Source: an uncultured Atopobiaceae bacterium
GTDB taxonomy: Bacteria > Actinomycetota > Coriobacteriia > Coriobacteriales > Atopobiaceae
Length of the DNA stretch: 64,000 nucleotides
Direction: 5' to 3'
Assembly (NCBI GenBank): GCA_944322145.1
Contig: CALUNW010000006.1
Coordinates: 124,001-188,000, forward strand
In this document: positions 1,819 to 56,980 of the stretch, in pieces
How positions within the stretch are numbered: position 1 is the first letter of the stretch
How the letters are laid out: each line of letters opens with the position of its first letter
Program-made: the position numbers and the translations under genes
Notes under the pieces: generated by a model
What the model saw: the letters and a program-made list of their open reading frames with translations, nothing else
What the model was told of the DNA's origin: nothing
Databases searched by the model: none

Positions 1819-1851
1819 TGATTCAAAAGGGGTCTGACCCCTTTTGAATCA
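1819..1851. repeat. 33-bp palindrome, family A
   Basis: Perfect palindromic arms TGATTCAAAAGGGG / CCCCTTTTGAATCA around a 5-nt centre (TCTGA). It lies between the divergent methyltransferase (start 1772) and nth (start 1877), so this copy is in a promoter region rather than at a gene end. Confidence 0.95.
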
Positions 1852-7548: not shown

Positions 7549-7986
7549 TTTCTCTCCGAGACGGAGATCGCCGAGATCAAGCCGTTCGTCCCGCAGGCGC
7601 TCGCAGGCGTGGAGACGCTCGCCGTGGCCGAGAGAGGCGACGCGCCCGTGGGCTTCATGGGCGTGGAGGGCGGCCGTCTGGAGATGCTCTTCCTCGACCC
7701 GGGGGCACGCGGCCAGGGCCTCGGCCGACAGCTCCTCGAGCACGGCATCGAGCACCTCGGCGTGGGCGAGCTCACCGTCAACGAGCAGAACCCGCAGGCC
7801 GTGGGCTTCTATGAGCACCTGGGCTTCTCGACCTACCGTCGCACCGAGCTCGACGAGGAGGGTCGCCCCTACCCGCTGCTCTACATGCGCCTGTTAATTG
7901 GGGATAGTCCCCAATTAACATGGCCGAGGAACGCGTCGAGCGCGGCGAGGCCGGAGGACAGGCGCTCGGCGACATGCTGCATGTGA
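7549..7986 (+). pseudogene. 5'-truncated GNAT N-acetyltransferase (YjaB-like)
   Basis: The frame is open from just after a TAG at 7546 and reads FLSETEIAEIKPFVPQALAG, then the GNAT core GGRLEMLFLDPGARGQGLGRQLL (acetyl-CoA-binding R/QxxGxG/A loop) and the C-terminal VNEQNPQAVGFYEHLGF. Members of this family normally begin about 25-30 residues earlier; that part is absent, and sequence upstream becomes the 9-bp tandem repeat. A GTG at 7609 could start a still shorter product. The natural end near MRL (about 7893) runs into a palindrome and reads on for 31 codons. Probably non-functional. Confidence 0.7.
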
Positions 7987-9038: not shown

Positions 9039-9045
9039 CGAAAAG

Positions 9046-9074
9046 TGATGAAAAGGGACTGTCCCTTTTCATCA
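9046..9074. repeat. 29-bp palindrome, family B
   Basis: Arms TGATGAAAAGGGA / TCCCTTTTCATCA with a 3-nt centre. It lies 7 nt after the gntR stop and 14 nt before the ATPase start, and may partly attenuate transcription into the transporter genes. Confidence 0.95.
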
Positions 9075-9088
9075 GAAAGGACGTCATC

Positions 9089-14756: not shown

Positions 14757-14797
14757 AAAAACGCGCGGCCCGATGCTCTTCTCGGCCGCGCGTTTTT
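14757..14797 (+). terminator. Rho-independent terminator after the UPF0210 gene
   Basis: A 14-bp stem (14757-14770 with 14784-14797): ACGCGCGGCC / GGCCGCGCGT flanked by an A-run on the left and T-run on the right. The loop CGATGCTCTTCTC contains the same CTTCTCGG motif that makes up the adjacent tandem array. Confidence 0.9.
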
Positions 14798-14803
14798 CTC
14801 TGC

Positions 14804-14888
14804 CCGAGGTTCTTCTCGCCCCGAGGCTCTTCTCGGCCCGAGGTCCTTCTCGGCCCGTGGTCCTTCTCGGCCCGGGGCCCTTCTCGCC
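14804..14888. repeat. 17-bp tandem array, five copies
   Basis: Five contiguous 17-bp units starting at 14804, 14821, 14838, 14855 and 14872, consensus CCGAGGTCCTTCTCGGC. Each unit is itself a weak hairpin (CCGAG / CTCGG). Units differ at one to three positions, so this is a diverged tandem array rather than slippage alone. Confidence 0.95.
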
Positions 14889-14893
14889 CCAGT

Positions 14894-14990
14894 AAACCTC
14901 ACAGGTAGTGTTACTCAAAAAAATTTCTCTAATTGTTAGCCATATCGATTAAATTACTAGATGTGGTAGTAACCACTACCTGTGAGGTTT
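14894..14990. repeat. 97-bp AT-rich element with 17-bp terminal inverted repeats, copy 1
   Basis: AAACCTCACAGGTAGTG (14894-14910) and its reverse complement (14974-14990) bound an AT-rich core that includes a second small hairpin GTGGT / ACCAC next to the right arm. Copy 2 at 16219-16315 has exactly the same length and ends. The AT content contrasts with the GC-rich surroundings. Confidence 0.92.
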
Positions 14991-18127: not shown

Positions 18128-19894
18128 GTGACCTCCGCACCCGTCCCCATACGCCTCTCACACGTGAGCCTCGTCTACGAGGGGGGCGTCGTCGCGCTTG
18201 ACGACGTCTCCCTCGAGGTCGCGCGCGGCGAGCGCATCTGCGTGCTCGGAGCAAACGGATCCGGCAAGTCGACGCTCGCCTCCGTCATCTGTGGGCTTCT
18301 CGCCCCCGACGCGGGCGCCGTCGAGCTCGTCGGCGAGCGCGTATGCTCAGACGGGCGCCCCGACCTCGAGGCATATCGCCGGGCCCGGCGCAACCTGGGC
18401 CTCGTCTTTCAGAACCCGGACGACCAGATCGTAACGAGCGTCGTCGAGGACGACGTCGCCTTCGGGCCGGAGAACCTCGGCCTCCCGCGCGAGGAGATCG
18501 CCGCCCGCGTGGCTCGCGAGCTGCACCGCGTTGCGCTCGACGACTATGCCGCAGCGGACCCCTCCCGCCTCTCGGGCGGCCAGAAGCAGCGCGTCGCCAT
18601 CGCCGGAGCGCTCGCCATGGAGCCCGACGTGCTCGTGCTCGACGAGCCCGGGTCGCTCCTCGACGTGCGCGGCCGCTCCGCCATCCTGCGCGTGATGGGC
18701 AGGCTCGCCAAGGCAGGCACCACGCTCGTGCACGTGACCCATTTCATGGAGGAGGCCGTCGAGGCGGACCGCGTGATCGTGCTCGATCGCGGGCGCATCG
18801 TGCTCGAGGGAACGCCCGACGAGGTCTTTGCACACGGCACGGAGCTGTTGGAGCTTGGCCTCGAAGTGCCGTTTGCCGCGCGCCTCTCCCAGCGCCTCGG
18901 CCTTCCCTGGACCTGCAGCGAGAAGGACGTGGTGGACGCCATCGCCGGTGTCCCATTTGGGGACAGGACGCTTTTGGGACATCGGCCCGATGTCCCAAAA
19001 GCGTCCTGTCCCCAAATGGGACACCTCATCTCAGTCGAGCACGCGTCCTTCTCGTACAGCGGGCGTGCCCAGGCGCTCGACGACGTTTCGCTCGAGGTCG
19101 CGCCCGGGGTGTCCACGGCGATCATCGGGCAGACGGGGTCGGGCAAGTCGACGCTGCTGCGTCTGCTCTGCGGCCTCGAGGTGCCCGACTCCGGGCGCGT
19201 CGTCGTCGCCGGCAACGACACCTCAACCAAGCGCGGACGAAAGGCCGTGCGCGGGGTCGTCGGCTACGTGATGCAGCATCCCGAGCGCCAGCTCTTCGCA
19301 GAGACGGTCGAGAAAGACGTGGCGTTTGGCCCGCGCAACCTGCGGCTTTCCGCAGACGAGGTAAGCCGTCGCGTGAACCGGGCGCTCGAGCTCGTCGGGC
19401 TCGCCGGCAAGCGCGAGGCATCCCCCTTCCAGCTCTCCGGAGGCCAGCGCCGCCTCTGCGCGCTCGCGGGCATCCTCGCCATGGAGCCCGAGGTCCTCAT
19501 CCTCGACGAGCCCACGGCCGGCCTCGACCCGCGCGGCCGTGCGATGCTTCGCCGCGTCCTCGGGCGCCTCCGCGAGCGGGGCATCACCCTCGTTCAGGTC
19601 ACGCACTCGATGGAGGACGCCGCGCGCTGCGACCGCGTCGTCGCCCTCGACCAGTCGCGCCTCGTCGCCGTCGGGACGCCGCGCGAGGTCTTCTCACCCA
19701 AGAACGAGGAACGCCTCACGAAGGGCGGCCTCGGCATCCCGCGCTCGCTGCGCGTGGCACGCGAGCTCGAGCGCCGGGGCTGGCCCGCGCTCGGCGAGCC
19801 TCTCACCACAGACGAGCTTGTCGCGGCGATCAGTGAGACGTTGAATGATTCAAAGGGGGACTGTCCCCTTTTGAATCATCGGGAGGTGAGGTAG
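18128..19894 (+). CDS. ecfA: Energy-coupling factor ATPase, tandem EcfA-EcfA' fusion with palindromes in the ORF
   Basis: 588 residues from GTG 18128. ABC domain 1: Walker A GANGSGKST, Q-loop FQNPDDQIVTSVVEDDVAFG, signature LSGGQKQR, Walker B VLVLDEPGSLLD. ABC domain 2: Walker A GQTGSGKST, Q-loop MQHPERQLFAETVEKDVAFG, signature LSGGQRR, Walker B VLILDEPTAGLD. Both sites look catalytically complete. The inter-domain linker (about residues 274-300) is encoded by a 79-bp perfect palindrome at 18947-19025. The last ~17 residues (LNDSKGDCPLLNHREVR) come from a second palindrome at 19845-19879. Adjacent to ribU and ecfT; energises vitamin uptake. Confidence 0.92.
   Translation: MTSAPVPIRLSHVSLVYEGGVVALDDVSLEVARGERICVLGANGSGKSTLASVICGLLAPDAGAVELVGERVCSDGRPDLEAYRRARRNLGLVFQNPDDQIVTSVVEDDVAFGPENLGLPREEIAARVARELHRVALDDYAAADPSRLSGGQKQRVAIAGALAMEPDVLVLDEPGSLLDVRGRSAILRVMGRLAKAGTTLVHVTHFMEEAVEADRVIVLDRGRIVLEGTPDEVFAHGTELLELGLEVPFAARLSQRLGLPWTCSEKDVVDAIAGVPFGDRTLLGHRPDVPKASCPQMGHLISVEHASFSYSGRAQALDDVSLEVAPGVSTAIIGQTGSGKSTLLRLLCGLEVPDSGRVVVAGNDTSTKRGRKAVRGVVGYVMQHPERQLFAETVEKDVAFGPRNLRLSADEVSRRVNRALELVGLAGKREASPFQLSGGQRRLCALAGILAMEPEVLILDEPTAGLDPRGRAMLRRVLGRLRERGITLVQVTHSMEDAARCDRVVALDQSRLVAVGTPREVFSPKNEERLTKGGLGIPRSLRVARELERRGWPALGEPLTTDELVAAISETLNDSKGDCPLLNHREVR
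18947..19025. repeat. 79-bp palindrome inside the ecfA coding sequence
   Basis: Perfect 39-bp arms (18947-18985, 18987-19025) about one central base. The outer part CCCATTTGGGGACAGG resembles the other nested palindromes in the window. It is not a multiple of three yet is read through without a stop, supplying the linker between the two ATPase domains. Confidence 0.95.
19845..19879. repeat. 35-bp palindrome, family A, within the 3' end of ecfA
   Basis: TGATTCAAAGGGGGACTG... paired with CCCCTTTTGAATCA; one mismatch (AAAG for AAAA). Read in frame as the C-terminus of EcfA, stop codon following at 19892. Confidence 0.93.
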
Positions 19895-25727: not shown

Positions 25728-26987
25728 ATGAGACGCCCGCGTCAGCTTCTTGCCCCCGTTCTTCTCGCCTGCCTTCTTGCGCTGGGACTCGCCGGCTGCC
25801 AACAGGCGCTCTCGCTCACGGCGACCGACCTCACCGCCGACGTCAAACCCGCCTCGGAAGCCTCCGTCGAGATGGCCGACGCAACGGCCACCTATGACTT
25901 TGCGCTCGACCTGCTCCGCGAGAGCACGGCCGAGGCGCCTTCGGAAAACACGCTCGTCTCCCCGCTCTCGGTGCTCTACGCGCTCGCCATGGCCGAGAAC
26001 GGGGCGGACGGCGAGACGCTCACGCAGATGGAACAGGCCACCGGGATGAGCGTCGAGGAGCTCACGGACACCCTCCAGGCCTACCTGCAGCTCTCGAGCT
26101 CATACGACGGGCCGCTCTCGCTCGCCAACTCCGTCTGGATGCGCGACTCCGACGGCCTGTCCGTGGAGGACGCCTTCCTCGAGGCGTGCGGCGGCAAGCT
26201 CGGCGCGCAGGTCTTCTCGGCGCCCTTTGACGACTCCACCGTGGCAGACGTCAACGCCTGGATCAGCGAGAAGACCCACGAGATGATTCCCGAGATGCTC
26301 AGCCAGCTCCCCGACCAGGCGCAGCTTCTCCTGGCAAACGCACTCGCGTTCGAAGGCGCATGGGAGGAGCCCTTCGACTCCGCGCTCGTCACGCCGGACA
26401 CGTTCACCCGCGAGGACGGCGTCGAGCAGGACGTGGACATGATGCACTCCACCGAGAACTCCTATTTCGAGAACGACCTCGCCGCCGGCTTTGCCAAGCC
26501 CTACGAGGACCACGACTACCGCTTCGTGGGTCTGCTTCCTAACAAGGGCGTCACGGTGGCGGAGCTGCTGGAGAGCCTCGATGGGGAGGGCCTGGCAGAA
26601 CTGCTGACCCCGAAGGAAAACACCGTCGTGCTCGTGAGCCTGCCCACGTTCACGAGCAGCTACGACATCGAGCTCTCGGACGCGCTCCGGGCGCTCGGGG
26701 TGACGGACGCCTTCGACGCCGAGGCCGCGGACTTCTCGCGCATGGGCAGCTCGGACGCCGGACCGCTGTTCATCGGCAGCGTGCTGCACAAGACGTTCAT
26801 CGACGTCGACGAGGAGGGCACGCGCGCTGCGGCGGCAACGGTCACAACGATGGACGGCGCCGCCGCCCCCATCGAGGAGGAGCCCGAGGTCAAGGAGGTC
26901 ATCCTGGACCGGCCCTTCGTCTACCTCATCGTCGACGCGCACACGATGACGCCCATCTTCACCGGCACCCTCATGTCCGCCGAGTGA
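25728..26987 (+). CDS. Serpin-family protease inhibitor, predicted lipoprotein
   Basis: 419 residues. Signal peptide with lipobox LAGC (LLACLLALGLAGC). Serpin core features: NTLVSPLSVLYALAMAENGA, SLANSVWMR, LLLANALAFEGAWEEPF, FVGLLPNKGVTVAELLESL. The reactive-centre hinge EEGTRAAAATVTTM (about 361-375) has the small residues required for inhibitory loop insertion, and the C-terminal FDRPFVYLI-like motif reads LDRPFVYLIVDAHTMTPIFTG. Likely inhibits serine or cysteine proteases at the cell surface, plausibly host or competitor enzymes. RBS GGAGGGAG. The TGA stop comes from a palindrome. Neighbour of the sigma/anti-sigma pair. Confidence 0.93.
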   Translation: MRRPRQLLAPVLLACLLALGLAGCQQALSLTATDLTADVKPASEASVEMADATATYDFALDLLRESTAEAPSENTLVSPLSVLYALAMAENGADGETLTQMEQATGMSVEELTDTLQAYLQLSSSYDGPLSLANSVWMRDSDGLSVEDAFLEACGGKLGAQVFSAPFDDSTVADVNAWISEKTHEMIPEMLSQLPDQAQLLLANALAFEGAWEEPFDSALVTPDTFTREDGVEQDVDMMHSTENSYFENDLAAGFAKPYEDHDYRFVGLLPNKGVTVAELLESLDGEGLAELLTPKENTVVLVSLPTFTSSYDIELSDALRALGVTDAFDAEAADFSRMGSSDAGPLFIGSVLHKTFIDVDEEGTRAAAATVTTMDGAAAPIEEEPEVKEVILDRPFVYLIVDAHTMTPIFTGTLMSAE

Positions 26988-27030
26988 TTCAAAAGGGGAT
27001 TCAAAAGGGGACAGTCCCCTTTTGAATCAT
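26985..27030. repeat. Family A palindrome with an extra left half-copy
   Basis: A 14-bp half (TGATTCAAAAGGGG, 26985-26998) is followed directly by an almost complete 32-bp palindrome (26999-27030). The first TGA is the serpin stop codon. Confidence 0.93.
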
Positions 27031-27037
27031 GCTCCCG

Positions 27038-27068
27038 ATGATGAAAAGGGACTGTCCCTTTTCATCAT
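27038..27068. repeat. 31-bp palindrome, family B
   Basis: ATGATGAAAAGGGACTG with its complement CCCTTTTCATCAT. Only 7 nt beyond the family A copy above, so two palindrome types sit in tandem between the serpin and the sigma-factor gene. Confidence 0.95.
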
Positions 27069-28784: not shown

Positions 28785-28789
28785 CGAAA

Positions 28790-28818
28790 TGATGAAAAGG
28801 GACTGTCCCTTTTCATCA
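28790..28818. repeat. 29-bp palindrome, family B, at the malic-enzyme stop
   Basis: Arms TGATGAAAAGGGA / TCCCTTTTCATCA. On the minus strand its leading TGA is the stop codon of the malic enzyme. Confidence 0.95.
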
Positions 28819-29994
28819 CAGGCGGGCGACGCCGGAGGTGCGGGCGGCCTCGGCCACGGCGGCGGCGACGGCGGGCGCCACGCGCTCGTCGAAGGCGCCG
28901 GGGATGATGTAGTCGGCGGCGCGGTGCTCGTCGTCGACGAGGCCGGCGATCGCGTAGGCCGCGGCCTCCATCATGTCGTCGTTGATGTCCGAGGCGCGCA
29001 CGTCGAGGGCGCCGCGGAAGATGCCCGGGAACGCGAGCACGTTGTTGATCTGGTTGGGGAAGTCGGAGCGGCCCGTGGCGGCCACGGCGGCCCCGGCGGC
29101 CAGCGCCTCGTCCGGCATGATCTCCGGCACGGGGTTGGCGCAGGCGAAGACGATCGGGTCGGCTGCCATCGTGCGGACCATGTCCTGGGTGAGCACGCCC
29201 GGGGCCGACACGCCCACGAAGACGTCGGCGCCGCGCACGGCGTCGGCGAGGCTGCCCTTCACGCCCTCGCGGTTGGTCCACGTGGCGATCTCGGCCTTCT
29301 CGGGGTTGAGGCCCTCGCGGCCCTCGTAGATGGCGCCCGTGCGGTCGCAGATGATGACGTCCTTCACGCCCATGCGCTGCATGAGCTTGGCGATGGAGAT
29401 GCCCGCGGCGCCGGCGCCGGAGAAGACCACGCGCACGTCGGAGAGCTCGCGTCCCGTGAGGCGGCACGCGTTGATGAGCGCGGCGCAGGTCACCACGGCC
29501 GTGCCGTGCTGGTCGTCGTGGAAGACGGGGATGTCGCAGGACTCCTTGAGGCGGCGCTCGATCTCGAAGCAGCGCGGCGCGGAGATGTCCTCCAGGTTGA
29601 TGCCGCCGAAGCTGCCGGCGATGAGCTCGACGGTGCGGACGATCTCGTCCACGTCCTTGGAGCGCACGCACAGCGGGAACGCATCGACGTCGGCGAAGGT
29701 CTTGAACAGGGCGCACTTGCCCTCCATGACCGGCATGCCCGCCTCGGGGCCGATGTCGCCCAGCCCCAGCACCGCGGTGCCGTCCGTGACCACGGCCACC
29801 AGGTTGCCGCGGCGGGTGTAGGTGTAGGAGTCGTCCACGTTCTCGGAGATCTTGAGGCACGGCTCGGCGACGCCCGGCGTGTAGGCCACGGCCAGCTCCT
29901 CGGGGCTGGTGATCGGCGCGCGGGTGATCACCTCGATCTTGCCCTGCCACTCGCGGTGCTTGTCGAGCGCGTACTGCTTGGCGTCCTCAGCCAT
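28816..29994 (-). CDS. NAD(P)-dependent malic enzyme
   Basis: 392 residues. Oxidatively decarboxylates malate to pyruvate. Has VAYTPGVAEPCLKI, the malate-binding VFHDDQHGTAVVTCAALINA, the NAD-binding VVFSGAGAAGISIAKLM and the conserved GRSDFPNQINNVLAFPGIFRGALD. ATG 29994 with GGGAG ribosome site; the more upstream frame is weak. The minimal length corresponds to the short bacterial (SfcA/MaeA-like subgroup without C-terminal phosphotransacetylase). Stop codon taken from a palindrome. Confidence 0.95.
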   Translation of the reverse strand: MAEDAKQYALDKHREWQGKIEVITRAPITSPEELAVAYTPGVAEPCLKISENVDDSYTYTRRGNLVAVVTDGTAVLGLGDIGPEAGMPVMEGKCALFKTFADVDAFPLCVRSKDVDEIVRTVELIAGSFGGINLEDISAPRCFEIERRLKESCDIPVFHDDQHGTAVVTCAALINACRLTGRELSDVRVVFSGAGAAGISIAKLMQRMGVKDVIICDRTGAIYEGREGLNPEKAEIATWTNREGVKGSLADAVRGADVFVGVSAPGVLTQDMVRTMAADPIVFACANPVPEIMPDEALAAGAAVAATGRSDFPNQINNVLAFPGIFRGALDVRASDINDDMMEAAAYAIAGLVDDEHRAADYIIPGAFDERVAPAVAAAVAEAARTSGVARL

Positions 29995-30777: not shown

Positions 30778-30793
30778 CGCACCTCCCTCCGGT

Positions 30794-30824
30794 GAGTCAA
30801 AAGGGGTCTGTCCCCTTTTGACTC
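30794..30824. repeat. 31-bp palindrome, family A variant
   Basis: GAGTCAAAAGGGG / CCCCTTTTGACTC around TCTGT. Arms start GAGTC rather than GATTC. In the divergent spacer between the NlpC-like gene and galE. Confidence 0.93.
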
Positions 30825-30901
30825 TACGGCAGCGGGAGACCGACGTATACTTGAAACTTAGGGGGAAACAGTCAGGAAGACGCTACAACGAAAGGACTTC
30901 C

Positions 30902-33974: not shown

Positions 33975-34059
33975 GGGGACGTGTTTTTTCGTGCAGACCG
34001 TTTGGGACAGGTTATGTAGAAACCTGTCCCAAACGGTCTGCACGAAAAAACACGTCCCC
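33975..34059. repeat. Nested palindrome with perfect 39-bp arms
   Basis: GGGGACGTGTTTTTTCGTGC begins at 33975 and pairs with its reverse complement ending 34059; loop ATGTAGA (34014-34020). The ends are GGGGAC and GTCCCC, as in the short families, with AATT to the left and TTTTGAC to the right, i.e. family C and A flanks on one element. It sits 3 nt after the preceding stop and before tRNA-Gln. Confidence 0.95.
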
Positions 34060-36645: not shown

Positions 36646-36676
36646 CTGTCAATTGGGGACAGTCCCCAATTAACAG
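36646..36676. repeat. 31-bp palindrome, family C
   Basis: CTGTCAATTGGGG / CCCCAATTAACAG with one mismatched position; 1 nt after the prs stop. Confidence 0.93.
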
Positions 36677-43177: not shown

Positions 43178-44863
<1,686 letters not shown>

Positions 44864-44864
44864 G

Positions 44865-46664: not shown

Positions 46665-46733
46665 GTGACAATTAGGACAGGTTGGATTGTCACACGCTCT
46701 CGGTGTGACAATCCAACCTGTCCCAATTGTCAC
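46665..46733. repeat. Nested palindrome with 31-bp arms
   Basis: GTGACAATTAGGACAGG at 46665 pairs with the sequence ending 46733 (one mismatch), loop GCTCTCG. The arms contain GGACAGG and TGTCCC, fitting the GGGGAC family. Between convergent lipoprotein and nadE genes; a shared terminator is likely. Confidence 0.93.
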
Positions 46734-46766: not shown

Positions 46767-48707
46767 TCACAGCGTCTCGAGCTCAGCGAGCCAGAGGGCT
46801 GAGCAGGCGTCCGAGGGCATGCGCAGGTCGCCGCGCGGGCTCACGGCAGCCGAGCCCACCTTGGGGCCGTCGGGCAGGCAGCTGCGCTTGAACTGCTGGG
46901 CGAAGTAGCGCCGGTAGAAGACCTTGAGCCAGGAGAGGATCGTGGCGTCGTCGTACTTCTCGCCCAGCGCATAGCGGGCAAGGCGGTAGACCTTGGCCGG
47001 GTTGGTGCCACGGCGCAGGACCTCGTAGAGGAAGAAGTCGTGCAGCTCATAGGGGCCCACGAGGTCCTCGGTCTTCTGCGCGATCTTTCCGTCGCCCGTG
47101 GCGGGCAGGAGCTCCGGCGAGACCGGCGTGTCCAGCACGTCGAGAAGAACCTCGGACTCCGCGGCGTTTCCGCAGGTGTCGGCCACGTAGCGCACGAGGT
47201 GGCGCACAAGCGTCTTGGGCACGCTCGCGTTGACGGCGTACATGGACATGTGGTCGCCGTTGTAGGTGGCCCAGCCGAGAGCCAGCTCGGAGAGGTCACC
47301 GGTGCCGATGACGAGGCCGCCCTCCTGGTTGGCCACGTCCATGAGGATCTGCGTGCGCTCGCGCGCCTGGGCGTTCTCGTAGGTGACGTCGTGGACGGAC
47401 TCGTCGTGCCCGATGTCGGCGAAGTGCTGGCGCACGGAGGCGGCGATGCCAATCTCGCGCAGCTCGGCACCCACGGTTCGGGCGAGCTCGCAAGCGTTGT
47501 TGTAGGTGCGGTCCGTGGTGCCGAAGCCGGGCATGGTCACCGCGATGACGCCGTCGCGCGGAAGTCCCAGCAGGTCGAAGGCGCGCACGGTCACGAGCAG
47601 GGCGAGCGTGGAGTCCAAGCCGCCCGAGAGGCCGATCACCGCGCGGCGCGAGTGCGTGTGCGAGAGGCGCTTGGCGAGGCCATGGGCCTGGATGGCAAAG
47701 ACGTCCTCACAGCGCCCCTCGCGGCGGGTGGGATCGGACGGCACGAAGGGATGCGGGTCCACGTAGCGGGTGAGTGAGGTCTCGCGGGAGGCCGCGCCGG
47801 CGCCCAACGAGAAGGGCACGGTCACGTAGCCGCACTCCTCGGCCGCAGCCGCGCACTCGAAGGTGGACATGCGCGTGCGCTCGGCCGCGAGGAGGCGGGC
47901 GTCGATCTCGGAGACCGCGTGGCCGTCACCGAAGGGCCTGCCCTCCGCGAGCAGGCGGCCGTTCTCGGCCACGAGGTCGTGCCCGGAGAAGACGAGGTCC
48001 TGCGTGGACTCGCCCGTGCCGGCGCTCGCGTAGACGTAGCCGCAGAGAAGGCGCGCGCTCTGGCCGGTCACGAGACTTCGGCGGTAGTCCGCCTTGCCGA
48101 CGACGGCGTTGGAGGCGCTCAGGTTGCAGATCAGCGTGGCACCGGCCTGCGCGTGCGCGATCGAGGGGGGCGCGGCAACCCAGAGGTCCTCGCAGATCTC
48201 TGCCGCGACCACGAGCTCGGGGAGCTCCAGGCACGAGAAGAGCAGGCTGGTGCCCATAGGCACGTTCTTCTCGCCCGCGATGGAGACGGCGACGGGGTCG
48301 ACGGGGCCGGAGACGAAGTGGCGCCCCTCGTAGAATTCGTTGTAGGTGGGGATGTGGGTCTTGGGCACGAGCCCGAGGACCATGCCGCGCGAGACGACGG
48401 CGGCGCAGTTGTAGAGCTTGCCGCCCGCGCGCACGGGCACGCCCACGAGAAGCAGCGCGTCGAGATCCGCCGTGGCAGCGGCAAAGTCGGCGAGCCCGGC
48501 GTCGGCGGCGCGGATGAGCGCGTCCTGCCAGAAGAGGTCCTCGCAGGTGTATCCGGAGAGCGCGAGCTCGGGAAGCACGATGACGACCGCGCCGTCCTTC
48601 TCGGCAGCCTGGCGCGCCGCCGCCACGCAGGACTCCACGTTGAAGGCAACGTCCGCGACCCGCACCTCCGGCGTCACTGCCGCAACCTTGACGAACCCGT
48701 CCCTCAT
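46767..48707 (-). CDS. nadE: Glutamine-hydrolysing NAD+ synthetase
   Basis: 646 residues. The N-terminal nitrilase domain has the Glu47 (IVLPELAL), Lys116 (LVPKTHIPTYNEF) and Cys172 (AEICEDLW) triad that releases ammonia from glutamine. The C-terminal NAD-synthetase domain has the ATP pyrophosphatase loop IGLSGGLDST (about 365). Last step of NAD synthesis. ATG 48707 with TAAGGAGG upstream. Confidence 0.97.
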   Translation of the reverse strand: MRDGFVKVAAVTPEVRVADVAFNVESCVAAARQAAEKDGAVVIVLPELALSGYTCEDLFWQDALIRAADAGLADFAAATADLDALLLVGVPVRAGGKLYNCAAVVSRGMVLGLVPKTHIPTYNEFYEGRHFVSGPVDPVAVSIAGEKNVPMGTSLLFSCLELPELVVAAEICEDLWVAAPPSIAHAQAGATLICNLSASNAVVGKADYRRSLVTGQSARLLCGYVYASAGTGESTQDLVFSGHDLVAENGRLLAEGRPFGDGHAVSEIDARLLAAERTRMSTFECAAAAEECGYVTVPFSLGAGAASRETSLTRYVDPHPFVPSDPTRREGRCEDVFAIQAHGLAKRLSHTHSRRAVIGLSGGLDSTLALLVTVRAFDLLGLPRDGVIAVTMPGFGTTDRTYNNACELARTVGAELREIGIAASVRQHFADIGHDESVHDVTYENAQARERTQILMDVANQEGGLVIGTGDLSELALGWATYNGDHMSMYAVNASVPKTLVRHLVRYVADTCGNAAESEVLLDVLDTPVSPELLPATGDGKIAQKTEDLVGPYELHDFFLYEVLRRGTNPAKVYRLARYALGEKYDDATILSWLKVFYRRYFAQQFKRSCLPDGPKVGSAAVSPRGDLRMPSDACSALWLAELETL

Positions 48708-48720
48708 CCCAGCCTCCTTA

Positions 48721-48753
48721 TGATTCAAAAGGGGACAGACCCCTTTTGAATCA
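48721..48753. repeat. 33-bp palindrome, family A, at the RAYT stop
   Basis: TGATTCAAAAGGGG / CCCCTTTTGAATCA around ACAGA. On the minus strand its leading TGA is the stop codon of the transposase gene. Confidence 0.95.
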
Positions 48754-49527
48754 CTCTGCTCGATCGGCCCTCGTTCTTCTCAGTTTATTTGTTACGCGTG
48801 TAATTGTGCAGGTTCCAATTCCGGTCAGCCGTTCAATTTGCTTAACGGACAGGCCAACGTCGCGCAAATCCAGGAGCCTCTGGTCTCGCTCCGCCTTGGG
48901 AAGCGCTCTCACCTCATGGGCGGGCAGTTCGCCCAGGGCAATGCGCGCAACATCGCCCATCTCGTCATCGGAAACCCGGGCGCGGCGGTCAAAGCGATAT
49001 GCCCGTCTCTGCTCAGGATGACTGTAGGCGATAAACCCCTCAGCTCCGCCAAGCATGTCCAAGACAAGTCGTGTGTCGGCAATCTCCGCAGACCCCACGT
49101 ACTCGCGATAGCTACTCCACGGGTACTCCGCCGCCGGACAAATCCCGGCGTTTGCCGGATTGTCATGCACGTAGCGAATAGCCTGAAGCAGGTACGCTTC
49201 GTTCTCGACGGGGCAGCTCTTGAACCGGCTTTCAAAGACGTGGCCCACCCTCCCCGACTTGCGGTTGAATCGCTGCGCATAGTCGCCGGAGAGTCTCTGC
49301 ATCATCTCGCTCAGCGCCTGTGTCGGGTCCTCCAGCACAAGGTGCACGTGGTTCTCCATAAGGCACCAAGCCAGAACGTGGATCCCTGCGTCTCCCGCCC
49401 TCTTTGCAAGGAGCTCGAGAAAAGCGCGGCGATCCGCATCGTCCTCAAAGATTATCTGCTTGCCGTTTCCGCGCAGAATCACATGGTAGAAGCCCGACTC
49501 GGCAGTTGCTCTTGGCGCTCGCGGCAT
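48751..49527 (-). CDS. REP-associated tyrosine transposase (RAYT, TnpA-like)
   Basis: 258 residues. Y1 HUH transposase with the His60-x-His62 motif in MENHVHLVL and the RAYT-type AIRYVHDNPANAGIC followed by YPWSSY; Tyr119 is the probable nucleophile. The C-terminal ~45 residues form an HTH (LRDVGLSVKQIERLTGIG) not found in IS200 TnpA. RAYTs process hairpin-tipped REP DNA. Two family A palindromes bracket the gene (48721-48753 and 49618-49650), the first supplying its TGA. No IS200/IS605 ends are visible. A single complete gene; activity is inferred. RBS GGGGGAGGGG. Confidence 0.9.
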   Translation of the reverse strand: MPRAPRATAESGFYHVILRGNGKQIIFEDDADRRAFLELLAKRAGDAGIHVLAWCLMENHVHLVLEDPTQALSEMMQRLSGDYAQRFNRKSGRVGHVFESRFKSCPVENEAYLLQAIRYVHDNPANAGICPAAEYPWSSYREYVGSAEIADTRLVLDMLGGAEGFIAYSHPEQRRAYRFDRRARVSDDEMGDVARIALGELPAHEVRALPKAERDQRLLDLRDVGLSVKQIERLTGIGTCTITRVTNKLRRTRADRAE

Positions 49528-49617
49528 AAAGACCCCTCCCCCGGATAAGACTTAGGTGGAGACTCTCATACCCAAGGGAGGGGACACACTTTCAGACAGA
49601 TTCAGGTTGACGAGAAA

Positions 49618-49650
49618 TGATTCAAAAGGGGTCTGTCCCCTTTTGAATCA
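49618..49650. repeat. 33-bp palindrome, family A, at the GlnQ-like stop
   Basis: TGATTCAAAAGGGG / CCCCTTTTGAATCA around TCTGT. Supplies the TGA of the ABC ATPase and lies 91 nt upstream of the RAYT start. Confidence 0.95.
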
Positions 49651-51690: not shown

Positions 51691-51723
51691 TGATTCAAAA
51701 GGGGACTGTCCCCTTTTGAATTA
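51691..51723. repeat. 33-bp palindrome, family A, at the binding-protein stop
   Basis: TGATTCAAAAGGGG / CCCCTTTTGAATTA. The last arm base pair differs, changing the expected TGA on the minus strand to TAA, the stop codon of the binding protein. Confidence 0.93.
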
Positions 51724-52825: not shown

Positions 52826-52906
52826 GGGTGATTCAATTGGGGACAGACCCCTTTTGAATCACCGGACTAATGATTCAAAAGGGGTCTGTCCCCAATTGAA
52901 TCACCC
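52826..52906. repeat. Inverted pair of chimeric palindromes, perfect 36-bp arms
   Basis: Arms 52826-52861 and 52871-52906 around CCGGACTAA. Each arm is itself nearly palindromic: its left end is family C-like (TTCAATTGGGG) and its right end family A (CCCCTTTTGAATCA), so it is a hybrid. Lies in the divergent spacer upstream of the cysteine desulfidase and the binding protein. Confidence 0.95.
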
Positions 52907-56062: not shown

Positions 56063-56950
56063 ATGAACACAAAGGGTGAGAAGTACCCCAACTCGGCGAA
56101 CCTCAATGCCGGAACCGACTTTCCCTACACCGTGCTCGACGTGATCGATGACGTCATGAGCCCGCGGCAAAACGAGGGCTTCCGCATCATGCACTGGCAC
56201 GATGACCTGCAATTCATCTTTGTATGGGACGGAGTCGTCGAGCTGTGGACGCTCGCAGAATCGCTTCGAATTGCCCCGGGCGAGGGCGCGTTCATCAATC
56301 GGGGCGTCATCCATCGCGTGGGACGCGACGGACCGTGTCACTACACAAGCCTCCTCTTTCCCGAGCGCTTCCTCTGGTTCTATCCGGAATGCCCTGCCCA
56401 GGCGCTCGTCGAGCGCATCGTGGGAAACGACGCGCTGGCGGTGCTGAAGCTCGCGCCGCAGACCCCTTGGGAAAAGCGCGCGCTCGACACGCTTCGAGAG
56501 CTCGCCGCACTCAGGCGCGACGGCATGGCGAGCGACGAGGAGTACGCCTACCGGGTTCTCGTTCTTCTCGCCCGCACCTGGCTTGAGATTGCGACGAATA
56601 TCGAGCCGACGAGGAGAGCCGGAGCGGATGTGCGGCGAGCGCGAGTCCGCGACGCGCTCTCGTTCATGGAGGCGCGCTATTCCGAGGCGCTTTCCCTGTC
56701 CGACCTTGCCGATGCCGCACACGTGAGCGTCTCCGAGCTTGGCCGCGACTTCCGGGCCTGCCTGGGAACGACACCTTGGCGCTATCTCACCGAGTACCGC
56801 CTTGGCCGCGCGGCGCGGCTGCTGCGTGCGACCAAGCTTCCCGTAGCGACCGTCGCGGCTCGGACGGGCTTTGCAAGCCCAAGCCACTTTGGGAAGCTCT
56901 TCCGCGAGCGAACGGGCCTCTCGCCCCGCGCCTATCGCGCTGCAAAATGA
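56063..56950 (+). CDS. AraC-family transcriptional regulator
   Basis: 295 residues. N-terminal cupin-like sensing region (RIMHWHDDLQFIFVWDGVVELW, then GEGAFINRGVIHRV), C-terminal two-HTH AraC domain (LSDLADAAHVSVSELGRDFRACLGTTPWRYLTEYRLGRA; PVATVAARTGFASPSHFGKLFRERTG). The ligand is unknown. ATG 56063; a weak ribosome site. Its TGA stop is in a palindrome shared with the convergent gene. Confidence 0.92.
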   Translation: MNTKGEKYPNSANLNAGTDFPYTVLDVIDDVMSPRQNEGFRIMHWHDDLQFIFVWDGVVELWTLAESLRIAPGEGAFINRGVIHRVGRDGPCHYTSLLFPERFLWFYPECPAQALVERIVGNDALAVLKLAPQTPWEKRALDTLRELAALRRDGMASDEEYAYRVLVLLARTWLEIATNIEPTRRAGADVRRARVRDALSFMEARYSEALSLSDLADAAHVSVSELGRDFRACLGTTPWRYLTEYRLGRAARLLRATKLPVATVAARTGFASPSHFGKLFRERTGLSPRAYRAAK

Positions 56951-56980
56951 TTCAAAAGGGGTCTGTCCCCTTTTGGATCA
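56948..56980. repeat. 33-bp palindrome, family A, giving stops to two convergent genes
   Basis: TGATTCAAAAGGGG / CCCCTTTTGGATCA (one mismatch). The left TGA ends the AraC gene; the right end read on the minus strand is the TGA of the tsaB-rimI-tsaD gene. Confidence 0.95.

Follow-up and report, generated by a model that had tools for sequence, protein, structure and literature searches.

The 64,000-nucleotide stretch of DNA analysed here, referred to as the window, carries a cassette of the TIRYT type, in which a Y1 HUH transposase that, from sequence and model, fits subclass 2.1 lies between two inverted 33-bp palindromes, with its seat between nadE and an ABC transporter gene. Each of the three such transposases of the genome has its own palindrome family, and the abundance of the palindromes is linked to the presence of the cognate gene. 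New here is the finding of palindromes of other families at orthologous intergenic sites of related species, often of the family that belongs to that species' own transposase. The spread and persistence of the palindromes of Y1 transposases can now be tested, as genomes that are 90-94% identical differ in the family present at places that agree almost to the base. Moreover, tens of palindrome copies are tied here, in Coriobacteriia, to a transposase subclass in which REP-like sequences had been reported absent. None of the papers listed for Coriobacteriia in the open part of PMC deals with such repeats by its title.

The transposase cassette and its classification

The transposase gene (48751..49527, minus strand) is a complete open reading frame with a product of 258 amino acids, which matches the Y1_Tnp profile PF01797 with an E value of 3.9e-14. 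In an alignment of 51 sequences, N59, H60, and H62 of the NHVH motif are near-invariant, and Y119, N123, and P124 are invariant. The AlphaFold2 model of the protein (pLDDT 92) has as its top PDB match the REP-associated tyrosine transposase 4er8 (E 3.9e-8); a PDB search with the sequence returned no match. Judged by the motif, the catalytic tyrosine, the domain, and the predicted fold, the product is a member of the Y1 HUH transposases (IS200/TnpAREP superfamily). Its helical C-terminal part (helices 187-257 in the model) looks like a helix-turn-helix, for which the sequence gives weak Pfam matches below the cut-off (Trp_repressor, E 0.003; HTH_7, 0.18).

The gene lies between two palindromes of the family named A here, both given on the plus strand: a left terminal palindrome with the core ACAGA on the 3' side of the gene (48721..48753) and a right one with the core TCTGT on its 5' side (49618..49650). 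The two are exact reverse complements of each other and form 33-bp terminal inverted repeats, and the sequence-only reading was right in describing a complete transposase gene between two 33-bp palindromes. The stop codon of the transposase lies inside the left palindrome, which abuts the apparent ribosome site of nadE (46767..48728, minus strand, TTG start in the ORF listing), the neighbour that marks the seat of the transposase across species. On the other side, the neighbouring ABC ATPase reading frame ends in the last three bases of the right palindrome, which form its stop codon.

TIRYT elements, or TIRtrons, consist of a Y1 transposase with inverted repeats bearing the motif GGGGWSAS and, as described in the accessible part of the paper that introduced them, some of the repeats are self-complementary, form moderately abundant families, and occur as dimers or clusters (Di Nocera 2013, PMC3733652). 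The cassette shares their defining trait, since the core GGGGACAG is present in both of its exactly reverse-complementary ends and fits GGGGWSAS. It departs from the accessible part of that description in that here each gene has a family of its own, and the family found at a shared address varies. The main text of the same paper makes no mention of Collinsella, Olsenella, Atopobium, Eggerthella, or Actinobacteria.

By sequence and model, the transposase belongs with subclass 2.1 of Quentin (group 1 of Bertels), the TIRYT of Di Nocera. As far as the accessible text of its description goes, TnpAY1 of subclass 2.1 have the motifs NHVH and Y..NP, a C-terminal helix-turn-helix, a median length of 238 amino acids, and few, divergent copies per genome (Quentin 2018, PMC6006769). 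The protein of the window has both motifs, the length of about 240 amino acids, and the C-terminal helix-turn-helix, the last by the weak Pfam matches and the model helices. In the same text, an automatic and a manual search found no REP-like sequences in the subclass, and the TIRYT repeats are noted; this absence is a published property of subclass 2.1, not a defining one.

The sequence-only reading had called the gene a RAYT accompanied by REPs. A HUH transposase paired with palindromes is indeed present and, like RAYT/TnpAREP with their REPs or REPINs, it combines the HUH fold and a single-copy gene with cognate dispersed hairpins and inverted doublets. Unlike in those systems, the repeats lack a GT[AG]G foot (of ten own addresses compared on their left side, one has GTAG, which there ends in a stop codon), the conserved core occupies the middle of the palindrome, and NCBIfam NF047646 (REP_Tyr_transpos) scores 62.8 bits against a cut-off of 80. 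The element falls outside the canonical RAYT/TnpAREP on both the foot and the profile, and subclass 2.1 or TIRYT takes the place of that name.

Palindrome families and their cognate genes

All hairpins of the window had been taken for one family of about 20 members. That grouping was rejected, as their arms split into at least four families; the A family has ten palindromes in the 64 kb, and about 20 is reached only by pooling several families. Besides the cassette ends, the A family comprises solo palindromes at 1819..1851, 19846..19878, 51691..51723, and 56948..56980, a variant with GAGTC arms at 30793..30825, a palindrome that follows a further A half arm and precedes a B-family palindrome (26985..27068), and the doublet 52829..52903, in which ACAGA comes before TCTGT in the order of the transposase ends. 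The B family, with GATGAAAAGGG arms, has four members, the other three being at 9045..9075, 28789..28819, and 44834..44864, and the C family (AATTGGGGA) has two, at 7891..7921 and 36646..36676. One doublet of the CCCAAAAG type is found at 18950..19022 (all of these on the plus strand), and three hairpins of further, unlisted families lie at 2578-2608, 34002-34032, and 46684-46714. The last of them resembles the ends of a transposase of G018 (locus L113; relatives are numbered from G001 onward and homologue loci carry L numbers). The window also contains a tandem array of a 17-bp unit resembling CGGCCCGAGGTTCTTCT, with a start-to-start spacing of 17, at 14766-14901.

In the genome of the window (G000; 2.40 Mb in 25 contigs), the A pattern AAAAGGGGNCNGNCCCCTTTT is found at 86 places with up to three mismatches and the reversed pattern at none, which rules out a chance origin and supplies the genome-wide count that the sequence-only reading had proposed; with stricter arms, 48 copies are counted. 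The oriented core GGGGWCTGTCCCC matches 61 times forward and 60 times in reverse, against none in the control. A close-pair pattern gives 35 pairs, again with no reversed control match; in 33 of them the members stand head to head, the order of the two cassette ends, and the exceptions are C11:19289 and C14:9418. Among the 100 of the 121 oriented cores that were listed, all 26 close pairs are head to head.

The other two transposase genes of the genome are 57% and 43% identical to that of the window. The second (G000:C11:74139-74900), with an open frame, has long double palindromes with CCCAAAAG arms on both sides, and the third (G000:C11:34433-35167) is flanked by AATTGGGGAC palindromes. Both of these families are also present in the window, as the doublet 18950..19022 and the C family, respectively. 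Each of the three transposases is thus shown to have its own palindrome family.

The same arrangement is found among homologues. At least one transposase match is present in 57 of 100 genomes, the own genome included, and flanks were read at 113 loci, a set that leaves aside many fragments and distant matches. Matching inverted ends (inverted-repeat score of at least 14) occur in 103 of the 109 homologues with both flanks readable, against 3 of 102 for outer flanks and 22 of 400 for mismatched pairs. In this, and in having several palindromic families and tens of copies, the elements are unlike the published subclass 2.1. In a collection of named species, 62 of 80 loci (the best 80 of at least 568) have inverted ends, with 0 of 72 in the outer control. 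Outside Coriobacteriia, as judged by record title, the proportion is 50 of 66, and 39 of these 50 carry a GGG[AT]C-type core. Within the order such a core lies upstream of the gene at 89 of 113 loci, and 47 of the 89 genes have a stem of at least 6 bp around it (control 8%), so that the hairpin is common but not universal there. The arms vary from gene to gene, and the core corresponds to the TIRYT motif GGGGWSAS. In two cases, L020 (G023, left end) and L051 (G016, right end), palindromes lie in short tandem duplications beside the transposase, with the joins inside the palindrome.

The abundance of the palindromes, counted in incomplete assemblies, is linked to the presence of the cognate gene. 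In the six genomes of the genus with an A-type gene there are 25-61 A palindromes, against 0-22 in the other 25 (p 8.9e-5). S2 palindromes number 4, 18, 30, 40, and 43 in the five genomes with an open-frame S2 gene, 19 and 4 in G018 and G025, where the gene is broken, and 0-7 in the other 24 genomes (p 2.3e-4, with the S2 gene of G002 counted as intact). This gene of G002 (L109:2400-2560) carries an insertion of 27 low-complexity residues that follows the core domain and keeps the frame, and its genome has only four S2 palindromes. Genomes with the S3 gene have 12, 18, and 64 S3 palindromes, one with a remnant has 4, and the other 27 have 0-38 (p 0.009). Among the latter are G011 with 38 (76% complete), G001 with 16, and G006 with 15, in which a cognate gene is lacking, as well as G024 with 20, in which S3-like ends are present at the nadE seat and the gene is split over two contig ends; as G024 was counted as being without the gene, the test is conservative.

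How far the generic core RGGGNCNGNCCCY exceeds its reversed control correlates with gene number across all 100 genomes (Spearman 0.63); this excess alone was used because the control reaches up to 73 per genome. Outside the genus, the median excess is 13 with a homologue and 2 without (p 2.9e-4), yet G019 (40), G026 (24), and G081 (48) have an excess of at least 20 without a listed homologue.

The proposal that palindromes and enzyme belong together is borne out by the three genes with three families, the inverted ends of the homologues, and the counts of the A family. Equal abundance in relatives lacking the gene, which had been named as an outcome against it, is largely not seen. Exceptions are G018 and G025, with 22 A copies each and no cognate gene among the matches listed, and family B, with 28 copies in the own genome, 16 in G018, 9 in G006, and 0-5 elsewhere; among all transposase matches of G000, G018, and G006, none has B-family ends. 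The enzyme may also mobilise these palindromes, as was proposed.

Other families at shared addresses

Many members of the genus have a transposase, with differing arms, in the gap between nadE and the ABC ATPase gene; none is present there in G003, G004, G005, G010, G011, G015, and G019. The identities of NadE and of the transposase are discordant, at 97% and 57% between G006 and G016, 96% and 57% between G001 and G012, and 89% and 94% between G012 and G008, which led to the rejection of descent alone at the seat. The simplest reading of these sequences is that the seat allele has been exchanged between species. In the transposase tree, the 14 labelled nadE-seat rows do not form one clade (3 changes); of the five other rows of the 19-row clade, L036, L040, and L043 also adjoin nadE, and L029 and L041 have no NadE match.

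An ordinary IS200/IS605 insertion sequence was rejected as the identity of the element, the own genome having no near-identical copies. It would be highly improbable, too, that the whole cassette hops as a unit and that the palindromes are its footprints. The exact 33-bp inverted ends would suit such an element, as would the doublets, which look like two ends without a gene, but its closest companions in the own genome are the two divergent genes described above, and the transposase keeps to its seat beside nadE in many species, adjoining nadE even in G046 and G058 of other genera.

A comparison of 40 stretches from 20 relatives shows how far the families differ at the same places. Of their 105 palindromes, 55 could be mapped to the window, and 43 of these land on an own palindrome, in 22 cases of another family (with A2 taken apart from A). 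The remaining 12 comprise five on the own doublet at 52830, cases missed by the automatic hairpin detector, five on own hairpins of unlisted families, and two on palindrome-free places; the ends of the transposase itself are among the palindromes counted, and site 44834 enters many times over. Relatives hold A, A2, S4, or other palindromes at 19846, A, B, S2, chimeric, or other ones at 51691, A, A2, B, S2, or S3 at 44834, and A, S3, or S4 at 28789. At 56948 an S3 palindrome is found in G006, and some relatives have A, C, S2, or S4 at the hairpins of unlisted families. At the address of the doublet 52829..52903, relatives have A, A2, S2, S3, or S4 palindromes, and five of them have none.

Conserved addresses of this kind could belong to host elements, such as transcript ends, that are fixed by selection, with the transposase as a passenger. 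Several palindromes do lie directly behind stop codons or supply them. This explanation is nevertheless improbable, as it accounts neither for the match between the arms and the flanks of the resident transposase nor for the abundance link, and the palindrome is missing at some addresses in relatives.

The families at these addresses tend to follow the seat. At the 13 window addresses compared, 74 cells are occupied, and 41 of them agree in family with the allele at the nadE seat, with a shuffled mean of 13.7 and none of 20000 shuffles as high. The match is 35 of 61 without the own genome, and 22 of 54 when cells are collapsed to distinct groups of address, allele, and family. A narrower table of nine addresses (41 of 55, without the C-family addresses, the unlisted palindromes, and one A-like case of G014) is superseded by these figures. 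Family labels come from motif lists drawn up after inspection, with A and A2 kept as different families, and the cell tables were copied manually. Address 46684 is loosely placed, with gaps of up to 841 bases and the cells of G007, G009, G023, and G030 taken from a separate comparison, as were four S2 cells at 51692, where the left anchor is 108-109 bases off. Moreover, the cells are not independent, since the species are related (G008, G017, and G022 are close kin) and blocks are exchanged, and the shuffle figures are therefore not probabilities.

As the window addresses lie near the seat, the test was repeated at seven A addresses on C1, C3, and C4 in ten relatives. Of 70 cells, 51 were resolved and 47 of these hold a palindrome, 34 of them of a family other than A or A2. 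The seat allele is matched in 26 of the 47 (mean of the shuffles 11.4, with 28 of 20000 reaching this number), a figure in which four labels were set by eye against the automatic assignment: G006 c1_180 (A and A2, to A2), G007 c3_205 (A2 and C, to A2), G017 c3_41 (S4 motif, to other), and G014 c3_205 (no motif, to A). Mismatching cells (33 of 74 in the window and 21 of 47 far from it) include several far addresses of G009 and G014, and G030 at 44834. G018, which has only a broken seat gene, has S2 at three of the far addresses and B or C at two others; a further one carries an unlisted variant, and one is unresolved. Some of the far mismatches fit another resident transposase, as the C family is found at c4_18 in G006 and G018, both of which have C-type genes. 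The layout is also largely kept, being double in 28 of 32 cells where the own copy is double and in 6 of 15 where it is single (Fisher p 0.0014).

Common descent by itself could produce such matches, if both the transposase alleles and the palindromes had been passed down with the species or moved in exchanged blocks, the enzyme having no part in the match. G008, G017, and G022 are closely related, no window address in the match test is more than about 41 kb from the seat, and an identical S2 doublet at c3_203 in G009 and G012 indicates that blocks travel. Against this, the pattern is also seen at addresses on other contigs, and G000, G006, and G018, with a DNA identity of 90-94%, have three different families or variants at c1_163, c1_180, c3_203, and c3_205; we regard this explanation as unlikely.

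Alternatively, each family could have inserted independently at the same few intergenic sites, with older copies being deleted and nothing rewritten. Enzymes related to the Y1 transposase choose target sequences. The place of the doublet at 52830 is free of palindromes in G003, G005, G010, G019, and G023, four of the 51 resolved far cells are empty, and in G018 at c3_203 the sequence TGATTCAAGG, similar to part of an A arm, stands before the S2 doublet, a relic to be expected if a palindrome inserted beside an old copy or within it. In G007, an apparent worn A arm lies behind a different palindrome at the same address. On the other hand, the left side of ten own copies has no shared sequence, and the boundaries at c3_41 agree within one base in the own genome, G012, G014, G018, and G022, in spite of their different arms, with the single or double layout kept. 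In addition, G001, G006, and G007 share with the own doublet at 52830 an odd AATT on its outer side; in G006 and G007 the arms are of the GGGTC type. Such hot spots are a minor possibility with some weight, and overwriting in place is favoured over them, the relic of G018 fitting both and chimeras being few.

A related phenomenon is the orthoswitch, in which orthologous transposase genes of related strains go with different repeat classes and abundance mostly follows the gene (Nunvar 2013, PMC3686654). In the model given in the accessible part of that paper, the old repeats stay in place and degenerate as new ones spread, by a mechanism that "can only be guessed". The situation here is alike in that different repeat classes are found at orthologous transposases and abundance mostly tracks the gene; unlike in the orthoswitch, other families occupy the same addresses.

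A proposed route of replacement

The reading preferred here, to which we give slightly better than even chances, is that a TIRYT-type cassette maintains its cognate palindromes and that, when the seat allele has been exchanged, the new family tends to take over the addresses that palindromes already occupy. In this mechanism, in which recognition, cutting, the process of replacement, and its direction are inferred, the enzyme would most likely recognise the hairpin of its own family, with variable arms and the conserved GGGGACAG core, as single-stranded DNA, and would cut and join it in trans. This action would maintain about 50 solo and head-to-head double copies, mostly at addresses shared within the genus. 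Once the transposase allele at the seat had been exchanged for one with different arms, the new family would replace the palindromes at existing addresses, beyond the old ones merely decaying beside the new. The change of arms may run via the joining of halves, via gene conversion from a cognate copy, or via insertion and loss. As the core is constant and the arms change, the core is suggested as the cutting or guide region and the arms as the source of specificity.

In a more specific version, the resident transposase would cut palindromes of any family in the middle of the shared GGGGACAG core and join its own arms, so that a single exchange at the seat rewrites the hairpins of the whole genome with their position and their single or double layout kept. 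Palindromes with arms of different families around the core would then be half-finished products of overwriting. Such chimeras are found at L158 near 13997, L197 near 9468, and L036 near 1417, and one more is present in G020 at address 52830. Of 29 candidate rows, ten are C-family variants, 11 reflect the regular asymmetry of S4, five belong to an unrelated repeat, and three are true joins. Because clear chimeras are this few, overwriting by way of the core was given lower odds and is put forward here as a tentative, somewhat doubtful version.

The spacer of the own doublet at 52829-52903 resembles the reverse complement of that of G001, as if the whole doublet had been turned round on the spot. 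In the S2 family, close pairs mostly have the core ACAGTCAC and many single palindromes have ACAGGCAC (for example in G022 and G008). The two ends of the S2 transposase cassette differ in the same way (ACAGTCAC and ACAGGCAC), and a distinction between left and right ends is therefore possible.
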